Shown: piece after piece, positions 7,676 to 30,054 of the stretch
Numbering within the stretch: the first letter of the stretch is position 1
Layout of the letters: every line of letters begins with the position of its first letter
Origin: Tetracentron sinense
Lineage: Eukaryota; Streptophyta; Magnoliopsida; Trochodendrales; Trochodendraceae
DNA length: 64,000 bases
NCBI GenBank assembly: GCA_015143295.1
Contig: CM026568.1
Location: 18,358,607 to 18,422,606 of the forward strand
Direction of reading: 5' to 3'
The notes under the pieces: model-generated
What the model saw: the letters and a program-made list of their open reading frames with translations, nothing else
What the model was told of the DNA's origin: nothing
The model's database searches: none
Translations under genes and position numbers: made by a program

Positions 7676-9742
7676 GTGAGCATGGGATTTTCTAACCCAC
7701 TTTCACAATTATATGTTTTGACTTGAGTCGCCACCTATTCATTCTTAGGGATAGGTCCCGGGTATTTGTTTGTTTGGATAAGGCAAATGGTTTAATCAGA
7801 GTTAGGGTAAGTGGTTCGGTTAAGCCCTGAGGAAGGTGTTAGGCACCCCAAGACCCCCGTTTTATAACTGTTACCTACTCCCTAAACTTAAGCCAATTAT
7901 AATCTCAAAGTTTAATTAGAATGTCCAAAGTTTTTAAGTGAGTGCTAATCCAAGAAAAATAGAAAGCTAGATGGCTAGGGTCGAACCCGAGTTGAGTTGC
8001 CTACGTACTCACATGGTGAGATCAGACCGAGCGTAGTTCTGGCACATGAGCCCGTGCCGAGGCTAGGGGGGAGTGTGTGTGTGCATAGGATGGTCAAAGG
8101 GTCTAGCCTAAAAGGCTATGGTTTAGTTGACATGTTTTTGAATTTTCATATAGGTAAGGTTTTGACAAACTTAACTAAAGTCAAATTTAGTCCAAGAGTT
8201 TGGCTAAAAGATTATAGTTTAAGACATAAAGAGGGATGTGCCTTATGAATAGTAAATGGTCTATTACCAACACCTATTTTGTTGGATTGATGTTGATAAT
8301 AGATCAAATACCATTGTCTTTAGTATGAAACATTTTTAAGAATGTCCTCTTTAAGTCCTTACACCATCATTTATCTTAAGTCCTTAAACCATCACCTACC
8401 CATTCAACATAGAACATGAAGAAAAAATAAAGAAATGAAAGAAAATGAAAACTCATCCTCTCCCTTTTAAGGTGGTTCATTTACACCATTATTAATGATG
8501 TAATGTTGCTCTAAAGAATGTTAGGGAGGGGATGAGCTTTCACAAAAAATTCTAGAAAGAGGACTAAAATCTCAAAAGAAAATAAAATGAAAAAGAGAGG
8601 TATAGCTTTAGCTTCCACTCTCTATGGGCCTACCCATATCCACACTTGTGGGTACATAAAAAAGAAGAAAATATGTACATGGAAAGGAAAAGAAAAAAGG
8701 GAGCATCTCCTTGCCTTTGATATGGGGTCCCTCTACACTATTAGATTGGTGTAGAGAGGCCCAACTATGCTTGAGAAATGAGAAATCAAGAAGAGAGAAC
8801 CAAATAAGAAAAAAGATAAAAAAAGAAGAGAAAATGAAAGAAGGAGTGCCTACTCCTCCAAGAATTCTCCTTCAATGCTCCAAGTGGTAGGGTTTTAGAA
8901 TCCACAAAGGAAGAGAGTTAGTGAAGAACTCTAAGCTTTTAGTCTTAGAATTCTTTCCAAACTCTAAACCTTAGTTTCTTCTCCCTTCTTCAAACTCAAG
9001 AGAAACACAAGTGGGTGGGAACCTTCTAGGGGTCTTGAGGGATGGATCTAAGGAGCTAAGAGATTGGTATTTATAGGAAAACTAAGAGGTTGGGTTGTGT
9101 CTTTTACATGGGGGATAAAAGGAGCTAGTGGGTAAAGACTTGAGTGTTGTAAGGTGAGTTGATAGATTGAGTGTTGTAAGGAGTGTAAGAGAGTTGATGG
9201 TTGAGTATTGTAAGGGGTGTAAGAGAGTTGGTGGGTTGAGTGAACTATGAGTTATATGGGTATGGGTTCTAGGATATAGGGTGGGTGGATATGGATATAT
9301 GGATTAGGTATTATGGATCATGAGTTATTAGTAGATGGGTCATGGGTTATGATTATTGGACTTTGACTATGACATTTGGGCTTGGGCTATGGAAATAGGC
9401 TTTGGCTTAGGCAATTGGGTGATTGGGTATTTGGGCTTGACTACTTGGGTTGGGTAATAAAATTAGGTAATTGGGTTTGATTGAGTTGTTTAGGTATAAG
9501 TTTGGTCAAATGGGCTTGGGCCTTGGGTATACCTAGGGCTTACTAAGGTTAGGCTAGGGCTACCTAGGGTTTGGGTTTAGGACTACCTAGGGTTAAGCTT
9601 AGGGTTAACTAGGGTCTTAACTAGGGTTTAGTCCTATGGTTAAGGGTTTACCTAGGGTTTGGAACTAGGGTTGATCTAGGGTTTGGACCATAGCTAAATT
9701 AATTAACCACGGTTAAGGGGGTGTAAAAATAGGGTGCTGACA
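7676..9742 (-). mobile_element. Solo LTR, copy 2, inserted in pol, TSD GGGAA
   Basis: The 2067-bp inverted relative of the LTR at 3303-5592 starts, on the plus strand, TGTGAGCATGGG and ends GGGTGCTGACA. Perfect 5-bp duplications GGGAA (7671-7675, 9743-9747) prove insertion into the Tat pol gene, between the RNase H motif ending SDFP and the downstream second RNase H. The TATA box is TATTTATA (9069-9076, read on minus). The part 9530-9690 is a degenerate tandem array of CTAGGGTT-like units. Confidence 0.88.
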
Positions 9743-11853
9743 GGGAAGTCAGAAAGGAATCCTGCCATTGCTTGCCCCTTCTCTGAACTTCTCGCTCTAT
9801 ACTGAATATCAAACTCACTCAGAGCCACAGCCCACTTCGACATCCTTCCCGCCAACTCGGGTCGTCCCAACACGACTTTCAAAAGATACATTGTGATGAC
9901 AACGATAGTATGAGCATGAAAGTAAGGACGAAGCTTTTCAGCAGAAAAGACAAGAGCAAGACACACCTTCTCGAGCTTGCTATAATTACATTCTGCCTTA
10001 AGAAAAGTTTTGCTGATGAAATAAACAGGCTTCTCGACGTCGCCACAACACCTGACCAGGACGGAGCCAATGGCCTGCTCTGAGACAGAAAGATAAAGAT
10101 ACAAGACTTCACCTGGCTCAGGGACGGAGAGAATAGGAGCTGAGCCTAAATACTCTTTCAAAGTAATGAAAGCTTGAGAACACTCTGGCGTCCACGCAAA
10201 AATAGAATCCTTCCTCAGGAGCTCAAAGAGGGGTTTACAACGATCAGAAGACTTGGAGATAAATCGATTGAGTGCAGCGATACGCCCTATTAACTTCTGG
10301 ATCTCCTTCTTCGACTTGGGCTCCGGCATGTCTAGCAGAGCTCGAATTTGAGCTGGATTAGCTTCAATACCCCGCTGGCTCACAAGATATCCCAAGAATT
10401 TACCAGAGGTAACTCCGAAAGTACACTTCTCTGGATTTATCTTCAAATTGAAAGTTCTCAGAATAGAGAAGGGCTCAACAAGATCCATCACAAGGGTATT
10501 CCGAAGTCGTCTCTTCACAACGATATTATCAATGTAAACTTCAACCGATTTGCCGAGGAGTAGCCCAAACATGAGATTCATCAGACGCTGATACGTAGCA
10601 CCGGCATTCTTCAGACCGAAAGGCATAACACGATAACAGAACAAGCCACACTCTGTAATGAAAGTGGTCTTCTCTTGATCTTCTTCCGTCAGGAGGATTT
10701 GATTGTAGCCCGAATAACCATCCATAAATGATAACATTTCATGGCCAGCAGTGGCATTGATGAGCCGGTCAATCCTTGGCATAGGGAAAAAGTCATTGGG
10801 ACATGCTCTATTGACACCAGTGAAGTCAATGCAAACTCTCACCTTCCCATTCTTCTTGGGTACTGCTACTACATTAGCTATCCAGTCAGGATACTGCACT
10901 TCTTGGATGAACCCAAACTGGATTAGCTTGTCTATCTCTTCATTCACTGCATCATGATAGGCAGGGGTCGGTCTCCGAGGTTTCTGCTTCACCGGAGGGA
11001 CAGCAGGGGGGTCAACATTGAGGTGATGACAAATAATGCTCGGATTTACGCCCGTCATATCTTTGTGCGACCATGCAAAGACATCAAGGTTCCTCTTCAA
11101 GAATTCTAGCAGCTCGCCCTCTTCGTCCGTTGTCAAGCTCGTCCCGATCTGCAACACCTTTGGCTCTTCTTCCGTTCCCAAATTGACTGCCTTCGTGGGC
11201 TCAACGGAAAGTCTGCACAACGTGGCCTCCAAGCTCTCTCCCACAACGGAGTCGACCTGTAATTGCTATTTGGGCACAACGGAAGGAGAGAGATCACACT
11301 TTTGCGACGCCAACTGATCCCCTCTGATCTCCTAGGGACCGTCCTGCGTCGGGTATTTCAACACCTGATAGTACGAGGAGGGAACAGCCTTCATCTCGTG
11401 GGTCCACCATCGACCCAAAATCGCGTTGTAAGGCAATGGAGTATCCAGAACGGAAAATCTGGTTTGTAGGACAATGGGTCCCGCCACAACGGGTAAGACG
11501 ACGTCGCCTAACGGTTTCATCGAACTGCCATCAAACCCAAACAGCGGGGTCTGAGCAGAGATGAGAACGGACGGATCCAACTTCATCTGAGTGAAAGCAT
11601 GAAGATACAAAATATCTGCCCCACTCCCGGAATCCACGAGCACCCTTTTGATGTCGAAATCTCTTATTCTCATGGTAAGAACAAGAGCATCATAATGAGG
11701 CCGGATTACCGTTGCCAAATCATGATCAGCGAAAGTAAGCTCTTGTCCCATGCTTCTTCCAGGCATCTGCACCTGACAAACCTCAGCTTCATGAGACATC
11801 TTCCTCGTCTTTGCTCTGAAATCTCTCTCCACGTCCTCCTCTATTGCTCGCAC
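9743..11853 (-). pseudogene. Tat-lineage Gypsy protease, reverse transcriptase and RNase H
   Basis: One reading frame carries protease and RT, interrupted by TAG at 11334-11332 and 11268-11266. The aspartic protease core is VLVDSGSGADILY, and the typical GRWWTHEMKAVPSSYYQVLKYP region follows. RT motifs are RVCIDFTGVNRACPNDFFPMPRID, FMDGYSGYNQI and VMPFGLKNAGATYQRLMN. The catalytic YxDD box reads YIDN (10536-10525), so the second catalytic Asp is lost. The first RNase H/connection domain (LYLYLSVSEQAIGSVL) is degenerate, as is usual in Tat elements that carry a second RNase H. The frame then runs into the solo LTR at 9742. The enzymes would process the polyprotein and make cDNA; this copy is inactive. 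Confidence 0.9.
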
Positions 11854-11943
11854 TCGGCAAATGACGTTGATAGTGCCTAAAGGGGCTCCCCCTCGTCCTC
11901 CTCCACTGGTACTTGGATTATTGGCAGGCTCTCCTGCACGAGG

Positions 11944-12874
11944 TTAGGATAACGGTTCTTTGGTGCGCATCGCGTTACCGTTATTGAAACTGAGATACTC
12001 TCCTAAGTACCCTTCCTGGACCAGCCTCTCCAAATACTCCCTCAAGATGCGACATCGGTTCGTAAGATGACCACGACATTTATGATAATGGCAATACTCA
12101 TGTGCCCGTGGTCCCGACGTAATATCTTGTACTGCTCTAGTAGGCCATTCGAAATACGCTTGGCCCTCCATTGACTTCATGATGGTCGCATGCTTGAAGT
12201 CAAACAAGTGCTCCTCCGGATCCATCTTCCCGGTGTACATGGGGAAGATTGGGGTCATAAGCTTGGAAGAAGTGTATGACTGATTGATGACATCTGTGAA
12301 AGGAGAGTTCTCGACGTTGTCTTTTGCTGATTGAGCAAAGTGATCAGGAATCCCTCCTTTCATGCTCTTGACACGAACACTGATCATAGCCTCCACCTCC
12401 TTGGAAGTCATTCAAGTCTTCTGAACAACCGCTCCCTCGGCAGCACCTCTCGAATCTTCTTGTCCTGCTTCTTCTCGAAAATCAATACGATCAGAAGGGA
12501 CTCTCTGCTCCGCACGAACCTGGTGTCACGGTTCTCCGGTGCTAAAAAGGGAGAAGAGAAGTCAAACTGACGTCTCACTGATGATCTCTGAGATGGCCCA
12601 TCATCTACTTCGAGCCTACTATGCTCAATTGTATCAAGCCTTTCTTGCATCATCTGCTGGTGTTTGGTGATCTGATCCAGAGCAGATTGTTGTCTTTGCA
12701 ACATCTTCAAAATACGATCAGAGACAGAAGGTTCAATGGGGGGAACATGGTCCTCTCTGGCTGGTCAGACGATGGACTGATCCCAGGAATGAAAGTCTGC
12801 ACGACAGAAGGTGCGAAAGGGGTGGCCTGAGGGGTTTGATTCTCACGCCCGGGCACAGAAGTTTGATCAGTCAT
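11944..12874 (-). pseudogene. Tat-lineage gag, frameshifted and internally deleted
   Basis: The likely start is the ATG at 12874 (MTDQTSVPGRENQTPQ), 38 bp after the PBS. A frameshift near 12740 leads to a helical stretch (MLQRQQSALDQITKHQQMMQ). A second break near 12520 and a TGA just before 12411 follow. The 12411-11944 part begins the conserved capsid region (SPFTDVINQSY, MYTGKMDPEEHLFDFK), then jumps directly to the C-terminal zinc-knuckle-like segment (EYCHYHKCRGHLTNRC). Most of the capsid domain, roughly 250 residues by comparison with typical Tat Gag, is missing. TAA at 11946-11944 separates it from the protease. Gag would form the virus-like particle. Confidence 0.75.
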
Positions 12875-13831: not shown

Positions 13832-13911
13832 CTAACATACAAGTGATGCTACAAAGCTAAAGCTCATTGGTACTACTAACCACAGCAGTATTCCTACAGC
13901 CAATGCCATAG
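13832..13911 (-). pseudogene. C-terminal end of a membrane-protein gene (part 3 of 3)
   Basis: Read on minus from 13911 to the TAG at 13834-13832, this is a hydrophobic C-terminus (LAVGILLWLVVPMSFSFVA...). It continues, in frame, the protein read on the plus strand at 14055-14289, so the two belong to one gene broken by an inversion (see 13956-14289). The last nine bases, 13903-13911, are the MITE target-site duplication, in the orientation ATGCCATAG. Confidence 0.7.
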
Positions 13912-13955
13912 GGCAAAAGATTACCTCGGGCAGCCACCAGAGGTAATCTTTTGCC
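13912..13955. mobile_element. Foldback MITE, short copy
   Basis: GGCAAAAGATTACCTC...GAGGTAATCTTTTGCC is a 44-bp copy equal to the element at 14290-14358 with 25 bp of the centre missing. It is the left breakpoint of the inverted gene segment. Confidence 0.85.
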
Positions 13956-14289
13956 TGCCAGGAGGCTCATGACTACCTATCCACCCCTTCTCATTACGAC
14001 TTCGAGTCTCAGAATGCATAAGAACTCGGATGTCCGAATTCCAGCCGACGAAATATGATCTTCGGATTAGCATTTCTGACTGCGGTTTCACTCGTCCAAC
14101 TTCCCAATGAGAACATAAACGGGAACCCGGCTCCAACCATCATCTTTAAGCTTAGCCCATCCGTCTTTCACGCCTTCCTCTTACCACTTACTTTAGCCTT
14201 CTCGGCAGCTGTTTGGACTATGTCTCTCGGGGACGAGTATCCCAAGATTGCAAGATATTGCCGACGTTTCTCTGTTGCTTCTATGGCAT
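13956..14289 (+). pseudogene. Inverted middle part of a membrane-protein gene (part 2 of 3)
   Basis: The plus strand encodes, after a TAA at 14019, the stretch MIFGLAFLTAVSLVQLPNEN at 14055 followed by NINGNPAPTIIFKLSPSVFH and two hydrophobic helices, ending ...FSVASMA at the MITE. The other parts of this gene are on the minus strand (13911-13832 downstream, about 14410-14359 upstream). Both edges carry half of a 9-bp duplication whose partner is at the other MITE, showing that this 334-bp block was flipped. The protein family was not recognised; it looks like a plant multi-helix membrane protein. The pattern P-R/K-x-A...AS-x-x-L-A resembles the 39386-40183 protein, so they may be distant relatives (inference). 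Confidence 0.7.
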
Positions 14290-14358
14290 GGCAAAAGATT
14301 ACCTCTGGTGGCTGCCCGAGCTAAGCGCTCGGGCAGCCACCAGAGGTAATCTTTTGCC
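14290..14358. mobile_element. Foldback MITE, full copy (32-bp perfect arms)
   Basis: The arms 14290-14321 and 14327-14358 are perfect inverted repeats (GGCAAAAGATTACC...) with a 5-base loop. It is flanked on the left by CTATGGCAT (14281-14289) and on the right by CTCCTGGCA (14359-14367). These do not match each other but match the flanks of the other MITE. 9-bp duplications fit a Mutator-like transposase. Confidence 0.92.
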
Positions 14359-14407
14359 CTCCTGGCAATACCAAACAGCCCAGACTGACCATATATACAA
14401 ATTAAAG

Positions 14408-14769
14408 GGACGTAATCTTCTCCAGTTGTAACCAGTTTTGCCAAAACAGTTACACCTCTGAGGTGGCCACATGTCTCTTTTGACACATTTTAACTGTGGT
14501 TAAGGTTCACTCACCCTTAGGGTTTATTTACCTATCATTGGTTTTTATAAAAAATAATAAAATAATTTATTAACCGTGGTTAAAATTCATTACCTCCTAA
14601 GTTAAAATATTTTTAATATTTAAAAAAAAAACCAAAGATAGGTGACTGAACCCTAGTATTGGTTGAATCTTAACCATACTTGAAAGGTGTAAAAATGGAT
14701 ACGTGGCTACCTTGGGAGTGTAACTGGTTTTAGCAAAAACCGGTTACAACTTGAGACGATTATGAGTCC
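14408..14769. mobile_element. Foldback MITE, core family A, 'GTAACTGG' ends
   Basis: This is a long inverted repeat. The outer parts pair GGACGTAATC...TTGTAACCAG with CTGGTTT...GATTATGAGTCC. The inner parts carry the family-A core (TTAACTGTGGTTAAGGTTCA on the left and its mirror, ending in a TTTTTA(G)AAAAA-like centre). Other members are at 14918-15195, 18566-18800, 18843-19185, 36006-36205, 37882-38090, 48942-49341 and 49419-49770. Confidence 0.75.
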
Positions 14770-14806
14770 AAATTAAAATGTTGGTCAACTATTGTTCATA
14801 GGATTA

Positions 14807-15379
14807 GGGCGGAGCCAGGAATTTTTGATTGGGGGACCAAAATACATGTATAAAAAAATTAATGGAACTTTGGGTTCGGGGCATAGCCCCCGGGAAATTT
14901 TTTTTTGGGATAATTTGTTCCGGTAATGTCCTTGAGGTCGCCACATGTCCCTATTTATATTGCTTAATTGTGGTTAAGATTCACCCACCAATCATTGGTT
15001 TTAAAAAAAATATATCAATATTTTTCAAACCCTAGTTAAAATTTACTAACTTTTAAGGTTAAAAAAATTTAATATTTTTTCTAAAAACCCAATGATAAGT
15101 AGGTGAACCCTAAGAGTTGATGAATTTTAACCATATTTAAGGGGTGTCAAAAGAGACATGTGGCAACCTAAAAGGGCATAACTGGACTGCATTGGGGGCT
15201 CACTATATATATGACAAAAAATTGGGGAGACCACTATATATAAGACAAAAAAGTTTGGGGGGTCAAGTATACTAACAAATATAAAAAAAAAATTGAGAGG
15301 CCCACAATTCCAGACCACGACAAGAAGAAATTTCAAAAAATTTGGGGGGTCCATGGCCACCCCTGGCTCCGCCCCAGTA
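14807..15379. mobile_element. hAT-like non-autonomous element ('GGGCGGAGCC' ends) with a nested foldback MITE
   Basis: The ends GGGCGGAGCCAGG and CCTGGCTCCGCCCCAG are inverted repeats, flanked by near-matching 8-bp duplications (ATAGGAT core). It belongs to the same family as 37637-38253. A family-A foldback MITE occupies about 14918-15195. No transposase is encoded. Confidence 0.7.
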
Positions 15380-16184: not shown

Positions 16185-16353
16185 GGACTTTGCTACTGAG
16201 ACCGTGTTAGGGCCGAGACCACTGAGACCTCGCGCCCCAACACGGGATCTTAAGTGGAGCCCATCTTCACATGGTGGGCCCCGCTTGAGATCCCGTGTTG
16301 GGGCGCGAGGTCTCGGTGGTCTCGGCCCTAACACGGTCTCAATAGCATTTCCC
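16185..16353. mobile_element. MITE, 'TGAGACC' family, copy 1
   Basis: The near-perfect palindrome has ends GGACTTTGCTACTGAGACC and GGTCTCAATAGCATTTCCC. The arms contain GGGCCGAGACCAC and GCGCCCCAACACGGGAT. Further copies lie at 19257-19443, 32145-32237, 33221-33382, 33401-33557 and 38511-38639. The two overlapping ORFs seen here are artefacts of the palindrome. Confidence 0.85.
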
Positions 16354-18842: not shown

Positions 18843-19185
18843 AGGACTCTTGATCCTCTCCGGTTGTAACTGTACTCTGGGGAGTCCAGTTACGCCATTG
18901 ACGCTGCCATGTATTCCTTATGACACCCCTTAATTATGGTTAAGCTTCATCCGCCCCTAGGATTCACCCACCTATCCTTAGTTTTTAGAAAAAAGTATTA
19001 AAAAGAAATTTATCCTGGGTTAAATTTCACTAACTTCTAAGATTAATTTTTTTTTAAAATAATTTTATCTAAAATCAATGATAGGGGGGTGAATCCTAAT
19101 CCCAATTAAGGAGTGTCAAAAGGGACACGTAGCAGTTTCAGTGGCGTAACTGGACTCCCCGAGTTTTGTTATAATTTTTAAGACC
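18843..19185. mobile_element. Foldback MITE, core family A, 'GTAACTGG' ends
   Basis: GGGGAGTCCAGTTACGCCA on the left pairs with TGGCGTAACTGGACTCCCC on the right, around the family-A core (TTAATTATGGTTAAGCTTCA and its mirror). Confidence 0.8.
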
Positions 19186-19256: not shown

Positions 19257-19443
19257 GAGAAATGCTAGTGAGACCGTAAAGGGCTAAGACCACACCGAGA
19301 CCGTCATATGATGCACAGAACTCAAACTTCAAACTTTTATTGATTGTTTTTATTTTTCTGAGTCCCGTGCATGTGATGCACAGTCTCGGTGTGGTCTCGG
19401 CCCTTTGTGGTCTCGGCTCTTTGTGGTCTCACTAGCATTTCTC
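19257..19443. mobile_element. MITE, 'TGAGACC' family, copy 2
   Basis: The ends GAGAAATGCTAGTGAGACC and GGTCTCACTAGCATTTCTC are perfect mirrors. The right arm has an extra duplicated GGTCTCGG..CTTTGT unit. Confidence 0.85.
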
Positions 19444-28900: not shown

Positions 28901-28914
28901 ACTAGGGAAAAGAT

Positions 28915-29095
28915 TTGCTCTGAAGGATGCCTGAGCATCCAGCTCGGGCATCCACAAATCATGCGACACTTGGGGATAATTTGGAGGAGAAGTCATTTCA
29001 TTTTCTCCCCATGATTTTGACTTCTCCCCAATTGATATTTCCTCACTTTTAAATGCCACATGCCCCATGATTTGTGGATGGCAGAGCCAATCTTT
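28915..29095. mobile_element. MITE, family D relative
   Basis: The inner GGAGAAGTCA...TTTTGACTTCTCC arms and ATCATGCGACACTTGG match the elements at 38808-39068 and 60549-60838. The outer ends (CTGAAGGATGCCTGAGC...GATTTGTGGATGGCAGAGCC) differ. Confidence 0.6.
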
Positions 29096-30054
29096 TGCCT
29101 TTCCAGTAACACTCTCTCCATTCAAAAAAGAGTAAGTGTTCAAAGAAACTGATGCTAGCATTATCCTTTTCTTGACAATGCACACCCCTTTTTCGGAAAC
29201 AATATGCAAAAGATTGATGTCCCGTCTTTGTGAGCCCACCAAAATACCTTTTTTTTTAATCAAAGAGGGGCGTCTGCATTGTGAGAAGAGTGCAACAGCA
29301 AAATCCTTCAGAAAGTGCCTCTAAACATATAATGAAAATATATAGAATAATATTATGGGATCACCTTGTCTAATGGAACTCAATATTACCAATTGGCATT
29401 TGGCCATGACAGTCTTCACAATGTCCTACACTACTATGTAGTTGGGCTTTTCCACATCAAGTTTTATGCTCGTCCAACCTGACTCTTAATGAAACTATTG
29501 AATATTTTAGGAGAAATCAATAATATGTCCATAATTAGCCTAATGCAAGTACCATTTTATTTTATTTTACTTTAGGCTGGGTAATCATTTATATATATAT
29601 ATATATATATATCATTCTACTAATAAAAGTACATGGAGTAACCTAAACTTTATGTAGACAAAATTAACCTTTATGTTACTTTATTATTCATAAAGTAAAC
29701 ATTATATTAATAAATAAAAAGAGAATTTTAGGACTAATTTTTATAGTGATTCTTAGGGATAGTATGGCCATTAGAAATTTCATTAATGACATTCTATTTA
29801 AATAATAAGCACATAAATTTAAGAAATTTACTCTCACCTTTATATTCAAGCCACGGTATTAATATATTTTATTAGTAATTATATTAATTTTTTATTTGAC
29901 ATAGAATTCTATTTAGTCTCAAATTACTCCACATTAGAATTCTAATTAATATACATCTCTAACCTTTCATCTTCTTAATCTATCCACACTAAAAGTTTCG
30001 TCAAAGTTACTCCTCTTTTCCAGCATAGACGGAACGTGAATGGTGGGCCTCTTA

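Follow-up and report, generated by a model that had tools for sequence, protein, structure and literature searches.

Inversions flanked by transposable elements and marked by exchanged target-site duplications are already known. In Drosophila buzzatii, as described in PMC2775673, the transposon Galileo generated the inversions 2j, 2q7, and 2z3, and single copies are described in chromosomes uninverted for 2z3. According to the accounts in PMC2775673 and PMC8225341, ectopic recombination should exchange the duplications, and so should hybrid-element insertion when both copies are at one site. MITE-flanked inversions are known in plants as well. The cleistogamy inversion of Brassica napus is bordered on either side by a 327-bp PIF/Harbinger MITE (Wan et al. 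2022, as described in the review PMC12595863). In maize, reversed-ends transposition of Ac/Ds leaves transposon ends at both inversion breakpoints and makes duplications there, as described in PMC8225341.

Here, we describe a 334-bp segment (13956-14289) that is inverted within a small membrane-protein gene. It lies in a 64,000-nt stretch of DNA (C18:18358607-18422606), which is called the window throughout. Elements of the same family were found at both breakpoints, namely MITE 1 (44 bp, 13912-13955) and MITE 2 (69 bp, 14290-14358). The locus resembles the Galileo inversions in that the same DNA transposon is present at either breakpoint and the duplications are exchanged as reverse complements (PMC2775673). 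It differs in scale, as the Galileo elements are about 1.5 kb long and their inversions are chromosomal (PMC2775673), whereas hairpins of 44 and 69 bp enclose 334 bp inside one gene here. The place of the uninverted chromosomes is taken in our case by uninverted paralogues, one of which (L001) carries no MITE. The Brassica napus case is likewise a plant inversion with a MITE at each breakpoint and changed genes, but it is about 30 kb long, swaps promoters, and has a phenotypic effect (PMC12595863). The Ac/Ds mechanism differs from the present case in that it needs an active transposase, makes a new target duplication, and eliminates whatever lies between the parental elements (PMC8225341). The gene studied here is colinear with L001 apart from small gaps, and if both elements had been at one site, the loss of sequence between them would not be visible today.

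The locus provides a base-exact record of a transposon-mediated inversion inside one gene, for which sister copies in the same genome serve as a control. The coupling of the inversion with a shortening of the elements may be the new part.

A 334-bp inversion within a membrane-protein gene

The left flank of MITE 1, ATGCCATAG (duplication A, 13903-13911, plus strand), is the reverse complement of the left flank of MITE 2, CTATGGCAT (14281-14289, plus strand). In the same way, the right flank of MITE 1, TGCCAGGAG (duplication B, 13956-13964, plus strand), is the reverse complement of the right flank of MITE 2, CTCCTGGCA (14359-14367, plus strand). The two flanks of each MITE do not match each other (6 of 9 positions differ for MITE 1 and for MITE 2), and flipping 13956-14289 provides both MITEs with perfect 9-bp duplications. 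The probability that both flank matches arose by chance is about 7e-12, computed at the base composition of the window. Both matches stop at exactly 9 bp, the tenth base being different on each side. The MITE positions, the unmatched flanks, and the swapped duplications had been claimed in the first-pass annotation, and our script reproduced every coordinate and letter of them.

The assembly (1.16 Gb, 1479 contigs) is that of a plant: 13 places in it exceed the cut-off for MIR156, a plant microRNA family, against none in 14 control genomes. It was searched for related copies of the gene. At the DNA level, 40 of 711 candidates were scored and four paralogues, which are not alleles, were listed (L001-L004). 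Each was aligned with the present order of the window and with the re-inverted, MITE-free order. For each of the four paralogues, the re-inverted order gave one alignment, whereas the present order gave two or three separate pieces that lie on opposite strands. L001, which is located on C18 at a distance of 78 kb from the window copy, aligned over 478 of the 490 query nucleotides, through both junctions. The alignments of L002, L003, and L004 covered 251 query nucleotides each and passed through the left junction; their similarity ends before the right one. Thus the 334-bp segment (plus strand) stands opposite to the paralogues with respect to both flanks in L001 and to the left flank in L002-L004, and the inversion is therefore shown. 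The alignment revealed no MITE at either insertion site of L001, and the L001 gene sequence is colinear with the window gene apart from small gaps. The gene flank to the right of MITE 2 (14359-14397, plus strand) lies outside the inversion and is also colinear with L001.

A protein-level search of the genome, in which all 24 candidates were scored, gave 11 matches. Two of them come from the window gene, whose halves lie on opposite strands, and another overlaps the C11 locus in a different frame. The other eight loci (two each on C18, C10, and C17, one each on C11 and C23) all cross the split point on one strand, the weakest being the C23 match (E 0.0014, 27% identity). Such a search of the same genome for a colinear paralogue had been proposed with the first-pass annotation; four DNA paralogues and, in the protein search, eight loci besides the window gene show the re-inverted order, and no homologue with the present order was found among them. 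The copies of this gene family vary: some have an unbroken frame, while others are shortened or contain a stop.

As now arranged, the gene body forms a plus-strand open frame inside the inversion (14022-14288, ATG at 14055), which runs on into MITE 2. The C-terminal 25 codons and the stop, coding for a predicted membrane segment, lie outside the inversion on the minus strand (13832-13909). After the flip, the open frame continues from 14288 into 13909-13832, as had been claimed. The gene body matches residues 1-89 of the rejoined frame at 100%, and the C-terminal piece (L042) corresponds to its residues 85-112. The first two of the 25 codons fall in the duplication, so that rejoining adds 23 residues and the stop at 13832. 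The added C-terminus is the most hydrophobic stretch of the rejoined frame. Among 127,856 overlapping 72-nt pieces from both strands of the window, 216 (0.17%) are open and equally hydrophobic or more. One of the two insertion sites is in the coding C-terminus, and the other is upstream of the part conserved among homologues. No Pfam family reached its cut-off for the two gene pieces, the rejoined frame, the L001 frame, or four homologues. The window copy differs in length from L001 near the N-terminus, and the likely start of the homologues would therefore be out of frame in it. Given this frame damage and the inversion, the window gene is probably a pseudogene on two counts. In the window as a whole, no Rfam match at the gathering score and no tRNA was found.

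The same results bear on the possibility of an assembly artefact at the two palindromes. Hairpins are difficult to assemble, but the error would need to switch exactly at the borders between the TIRs and the duplications, and the locus is present once at 100% among the 40 places scored of 711 candidates. We consider such an artefact most improbable.

Two further candidates were rejected. An inverted duplication of a longer sequence is ruled out by the identity ending at 9 bp. A Pack-MULE or other composite element delimited by the outer MITE ends disagrees with the outer flanks, which differ at 7 of 9 positions, and with the gene sequence, which continues across the left junction in all of L001-L004 and, in L001, across the right one too.

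The MITE family and its short forms

MITE 1 consists of a TIR joined to an inverted TIR, with perfect 16-bp arms. MITE 2 is a near-perfect palindrome with 32-bp arms and a DNA fold of -43.6 kcal/mol. MITE 1 equals MITE 2 without 25 internal bp. Compared with the standard element L005, both read as TIR-to-TIR deletion joints, with a microhomology of 3 bp (CTC) at the joint of MITE 1 and of 9 bp (GCTCGGGCA) at that of MITE 2; the extent of this microhomology varies with the reference, other compared copies sharing fewer letters and some having no overlap. In the window, the TIR 14-mer occurs without mismatch only at the four ends of MITE 1 and MITE 2, and a fifth place contains it with two mismatches.

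The family is mostly about 221 bp long. Its full-size copies share long TIRs, and deletion derivatives of 115-205 bp exist. We examined 27 other elements, defined by exact 16-bp ends among the fetched loci. They were taken from a similarity listing, from a TIR-end listing and there partly for their unusual length, or as the first places of pattern searches by gap range. L010 and L011, with a single TIR end each, were left out, as were L007 and L012, whose ends are inexact and whose duplications are perfect, and repeat fetches of the same place. The length was 213-226 bp in 17 of the 27, many of which were fetched by a pattern requiring that size. Target-site duplications with at most one mismatch, in addition to the TIRs, were found in 22 of the 27 elements (9 bp in 19, 10 bp in 3). 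Two others had duplications with two mismatches, and the flanks of three were unmatched. Mutator-like elements have target-site duplications of 9-11 bp. The family is like Mutator-like (MULE) MITEs in its TIRs and 9-bp duplications, and we take it to be a putative member of the Mutator superfamily, judged by the duplication length only.

The three elements with unmatched flanks are L032 (C23:23966971-23967119), L008 (its positions 206-425, C17), and L046 (C1:60855321-60855515), and they are candidate rearrangements themselves. Exact-pattern searches for an exchanged partner of L008 or L032 yielded no match, apart from one place fitting neither flank exactly. In L022 (positions 1439-1708), two left TIRs are arranged in tandem, 62 bp apart, within one 10-bp duplication, TCACTTATTA. 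The window itself contains a diverged 195-bp relative of the family (28905-29099), whose 9-bp flanks TTTCCACTA and TTTCCAGTA are in the ordinary order with one mismatch.

The rarity of the short forms was estimated by pattern searches with exact 16-bp ends, covering gaps of 10-40, 41-71, 103-133, and 175-205 bp. The genome contains 335 such ends (167 forward, 168 reverse). In 1.16 Gb, only MITE 1 and MITE 2 have such ends at a distance of 10-40 bp. There are none at 41-71 bp, one pair at 103-133 bp, and 84 at 175-205 bp, the last corresponding to elements of 207-237 bp. One 115-bp element, with a gap in the range of 72-102 bp, was present among the listed TIR ends. About half of the 335 ends lie outside the 84 full-size pairs, which suggests that many copies have one mutated end and are missed by two-ended patterns. 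A similarity search gave no other full-length match to the 69-bp MITE 2 among 40 scored of 659 candidates. With looser 11-bp ends, four elements of 42-72 bp were found genome-wide: MITE 1, MITE 2, and two of 61 bp with slightly different TIRs, L052 (C7:8512752-8512812) and L053 (C13:43027035-43027095). Thus, of the four short forms detected in 1.16 Gb, two sit at the breakpoints of one inversion. Each of the 61-bp elements is solitary and has an ordinary 9-bp duplication, with one mismatch in L052 and perfect in L053. This indicates that short forms can arise or insert without an inversion, and the proposal that they occur only at rearrangements is refuted for the wider family. Among 50 listed of the 84 full-size elements, no two lie closer together than about 6.9 kb, so that a pair of insertions separated by about 325 bp would be unusual for this family.

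Routes to the inversion and the short remnants

The first-pass annotation had explained the locus by two insertions into one gene followed by recombination between the MITEs. The order in the paralogues bears out the inversion and the broken gene, while the sequence of events proposed there is one of several possible routes. The main mechanisms, passive recombination, aberrant transposition, and break repair, predict different ancestral alleles.

By a narrow margin, we favour a single break-and-join event in which two ordinary MITEs were shortened while the segment between them was flipped. We give it somewhat less than an even chance, and hybrid-element insertion and simple recombination follow closely. 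According to this model, two ordinary MITEs of about 221 bp from the Mutator-like family would have inserted at two sites about 325 bp from each other, namely in the region coding for the C-terminus and upstream. Internal breaks in both elements would follow, by hairpin cleavage or by excision with incomplete gap repair. The four broken ends would carry the same TIR, and the repair could not tell the partners apart. Since all four ends of neighbouring MITEs are alike, a random choice of partners can flip the segment between them. The ends would be joined through short TIR homologies, and one event would produce both the inversion and the TIR-to-TIR remnants of 44 and 69 bp. The flip itself may thus have truncated the remnants, and each breakpoint would then keep a short foldback scar whose duplications are exchanged. 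That the inversion and both hairpin remnants are products of one repair event is a possibility we hold a little more doubtfully still.

The rarity of the forms with gaps of 10-40 bp, both of them at this locus, and the microhomology at the joints would speak for the coupled shortening. The solitary L052 and L053 with their ordinary duplications speak against it. They lowered our estimate for the break-and-join event from an even chance to somewhat below it, and that for the single repair from just under even to a somewhat lower one, and raised the estimates for the rival routes. The wide spacing of the listed full-size elements is a further argument against the coupled model. The comparison also rests on paralogues, not on an ancestral allele with two full-size MITEs. 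Finally, the 25-bp difference between MITE 1 and MITE 2 would be expected equally from another route, namely hybrid-element insertion followed by a later deletion.

In that route, an aberrant transposition between sister chromatids would start from a single short MITE at one of the two sites. Once this had been replicated, the sister copies would each contribute one end, and these ends would insert together at the nearby second site and invert the stretch between the sites. A MITE would be left at each breakpoint, and MITE 1 would later lose 25 bp. This process gives the same duplication pattern as recombination and is expected to place identical copies at both breakpoints, as described in PMC2775673. 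It accounts in one step for the rare short form at both breakpoints, and it agrees with the existence of solitary short elements in the wider family and with the sequence of MITE 1, all of which is found in MITE 2 if one 25-bp gap is allowed. However, two further deletions are required, the first from about 221 bp to 69 bp and the second to 44 bp. Chimeric elements were taken as proof of recombination for Galileo (PMC2775673); here the TIRs of MITE 1 and MITE 2 are identical wherever they are kept, and a chimera would look no different. We regard hybrid-element insertion as unlikely, but as the least unlikely of the alternatives.

Simple ectopic recombination between two already short MITEs, inserted independently or by a local hop, is the model of the first-pass annotation. 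Exchanged duplications are its expected mark (PMC2775673; PMC8225341), inverted homology of 44-69 bp is present 334 bp apart, and short solitary elements are known in the wider family. Against this model, there is no further short copy with exact 16-bp ends, and the two looser ones differ in their TIRs. With so rare a form, its independent insertion twice within about 325 bp would have to be put down to coincidence, unless one copy had hopped from the other. We judge this route somewhat less likely still. Recombination could also have taken place between two full-size MITEs, each internally deleted later. Such copies are available (84 with exact ends and long shared TIRs), and the derivatives of 115-205 bp document deletions in the family, but two independent extreme deletions at neighbouring sites would have to yield a form that is very rare elsewhere. 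This makes the full-size variant very improbable.

If the favoured break-and-join model is true, small gene-breaking inversions would be recognisable by a signature, a pair of short foldback scars that carry exchanged duplications. If such scars mark these events, other plant genomes could be searched for them and small inversions counted.

Clustered gene copies and neighbouring repeats

The region C18:18294082-18433039 contains three copies of the membrane-protein gene within about 140 kb, with the window gene between the other two. The gene is also paired on C10 and on C17, and it forms a small clustered family to which no Pfam name applies.

The window has repeats several hundred bases long at 14405-15170 and 18845-19136. 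They also align, in both orientations, with positions 909-1250 of L001 and resemble a foldback-type repeat family of high abundance. At 16200-16340 and 19270-19430, inverted repeats whose ends are GGTCTCGGCCCT-like resemble, by eye, another short transposon family. On the minus strand, the broken open frames at 9703-12411 presumably belong to a Gypsy-type retrotransposon, judged by their protein sequence.
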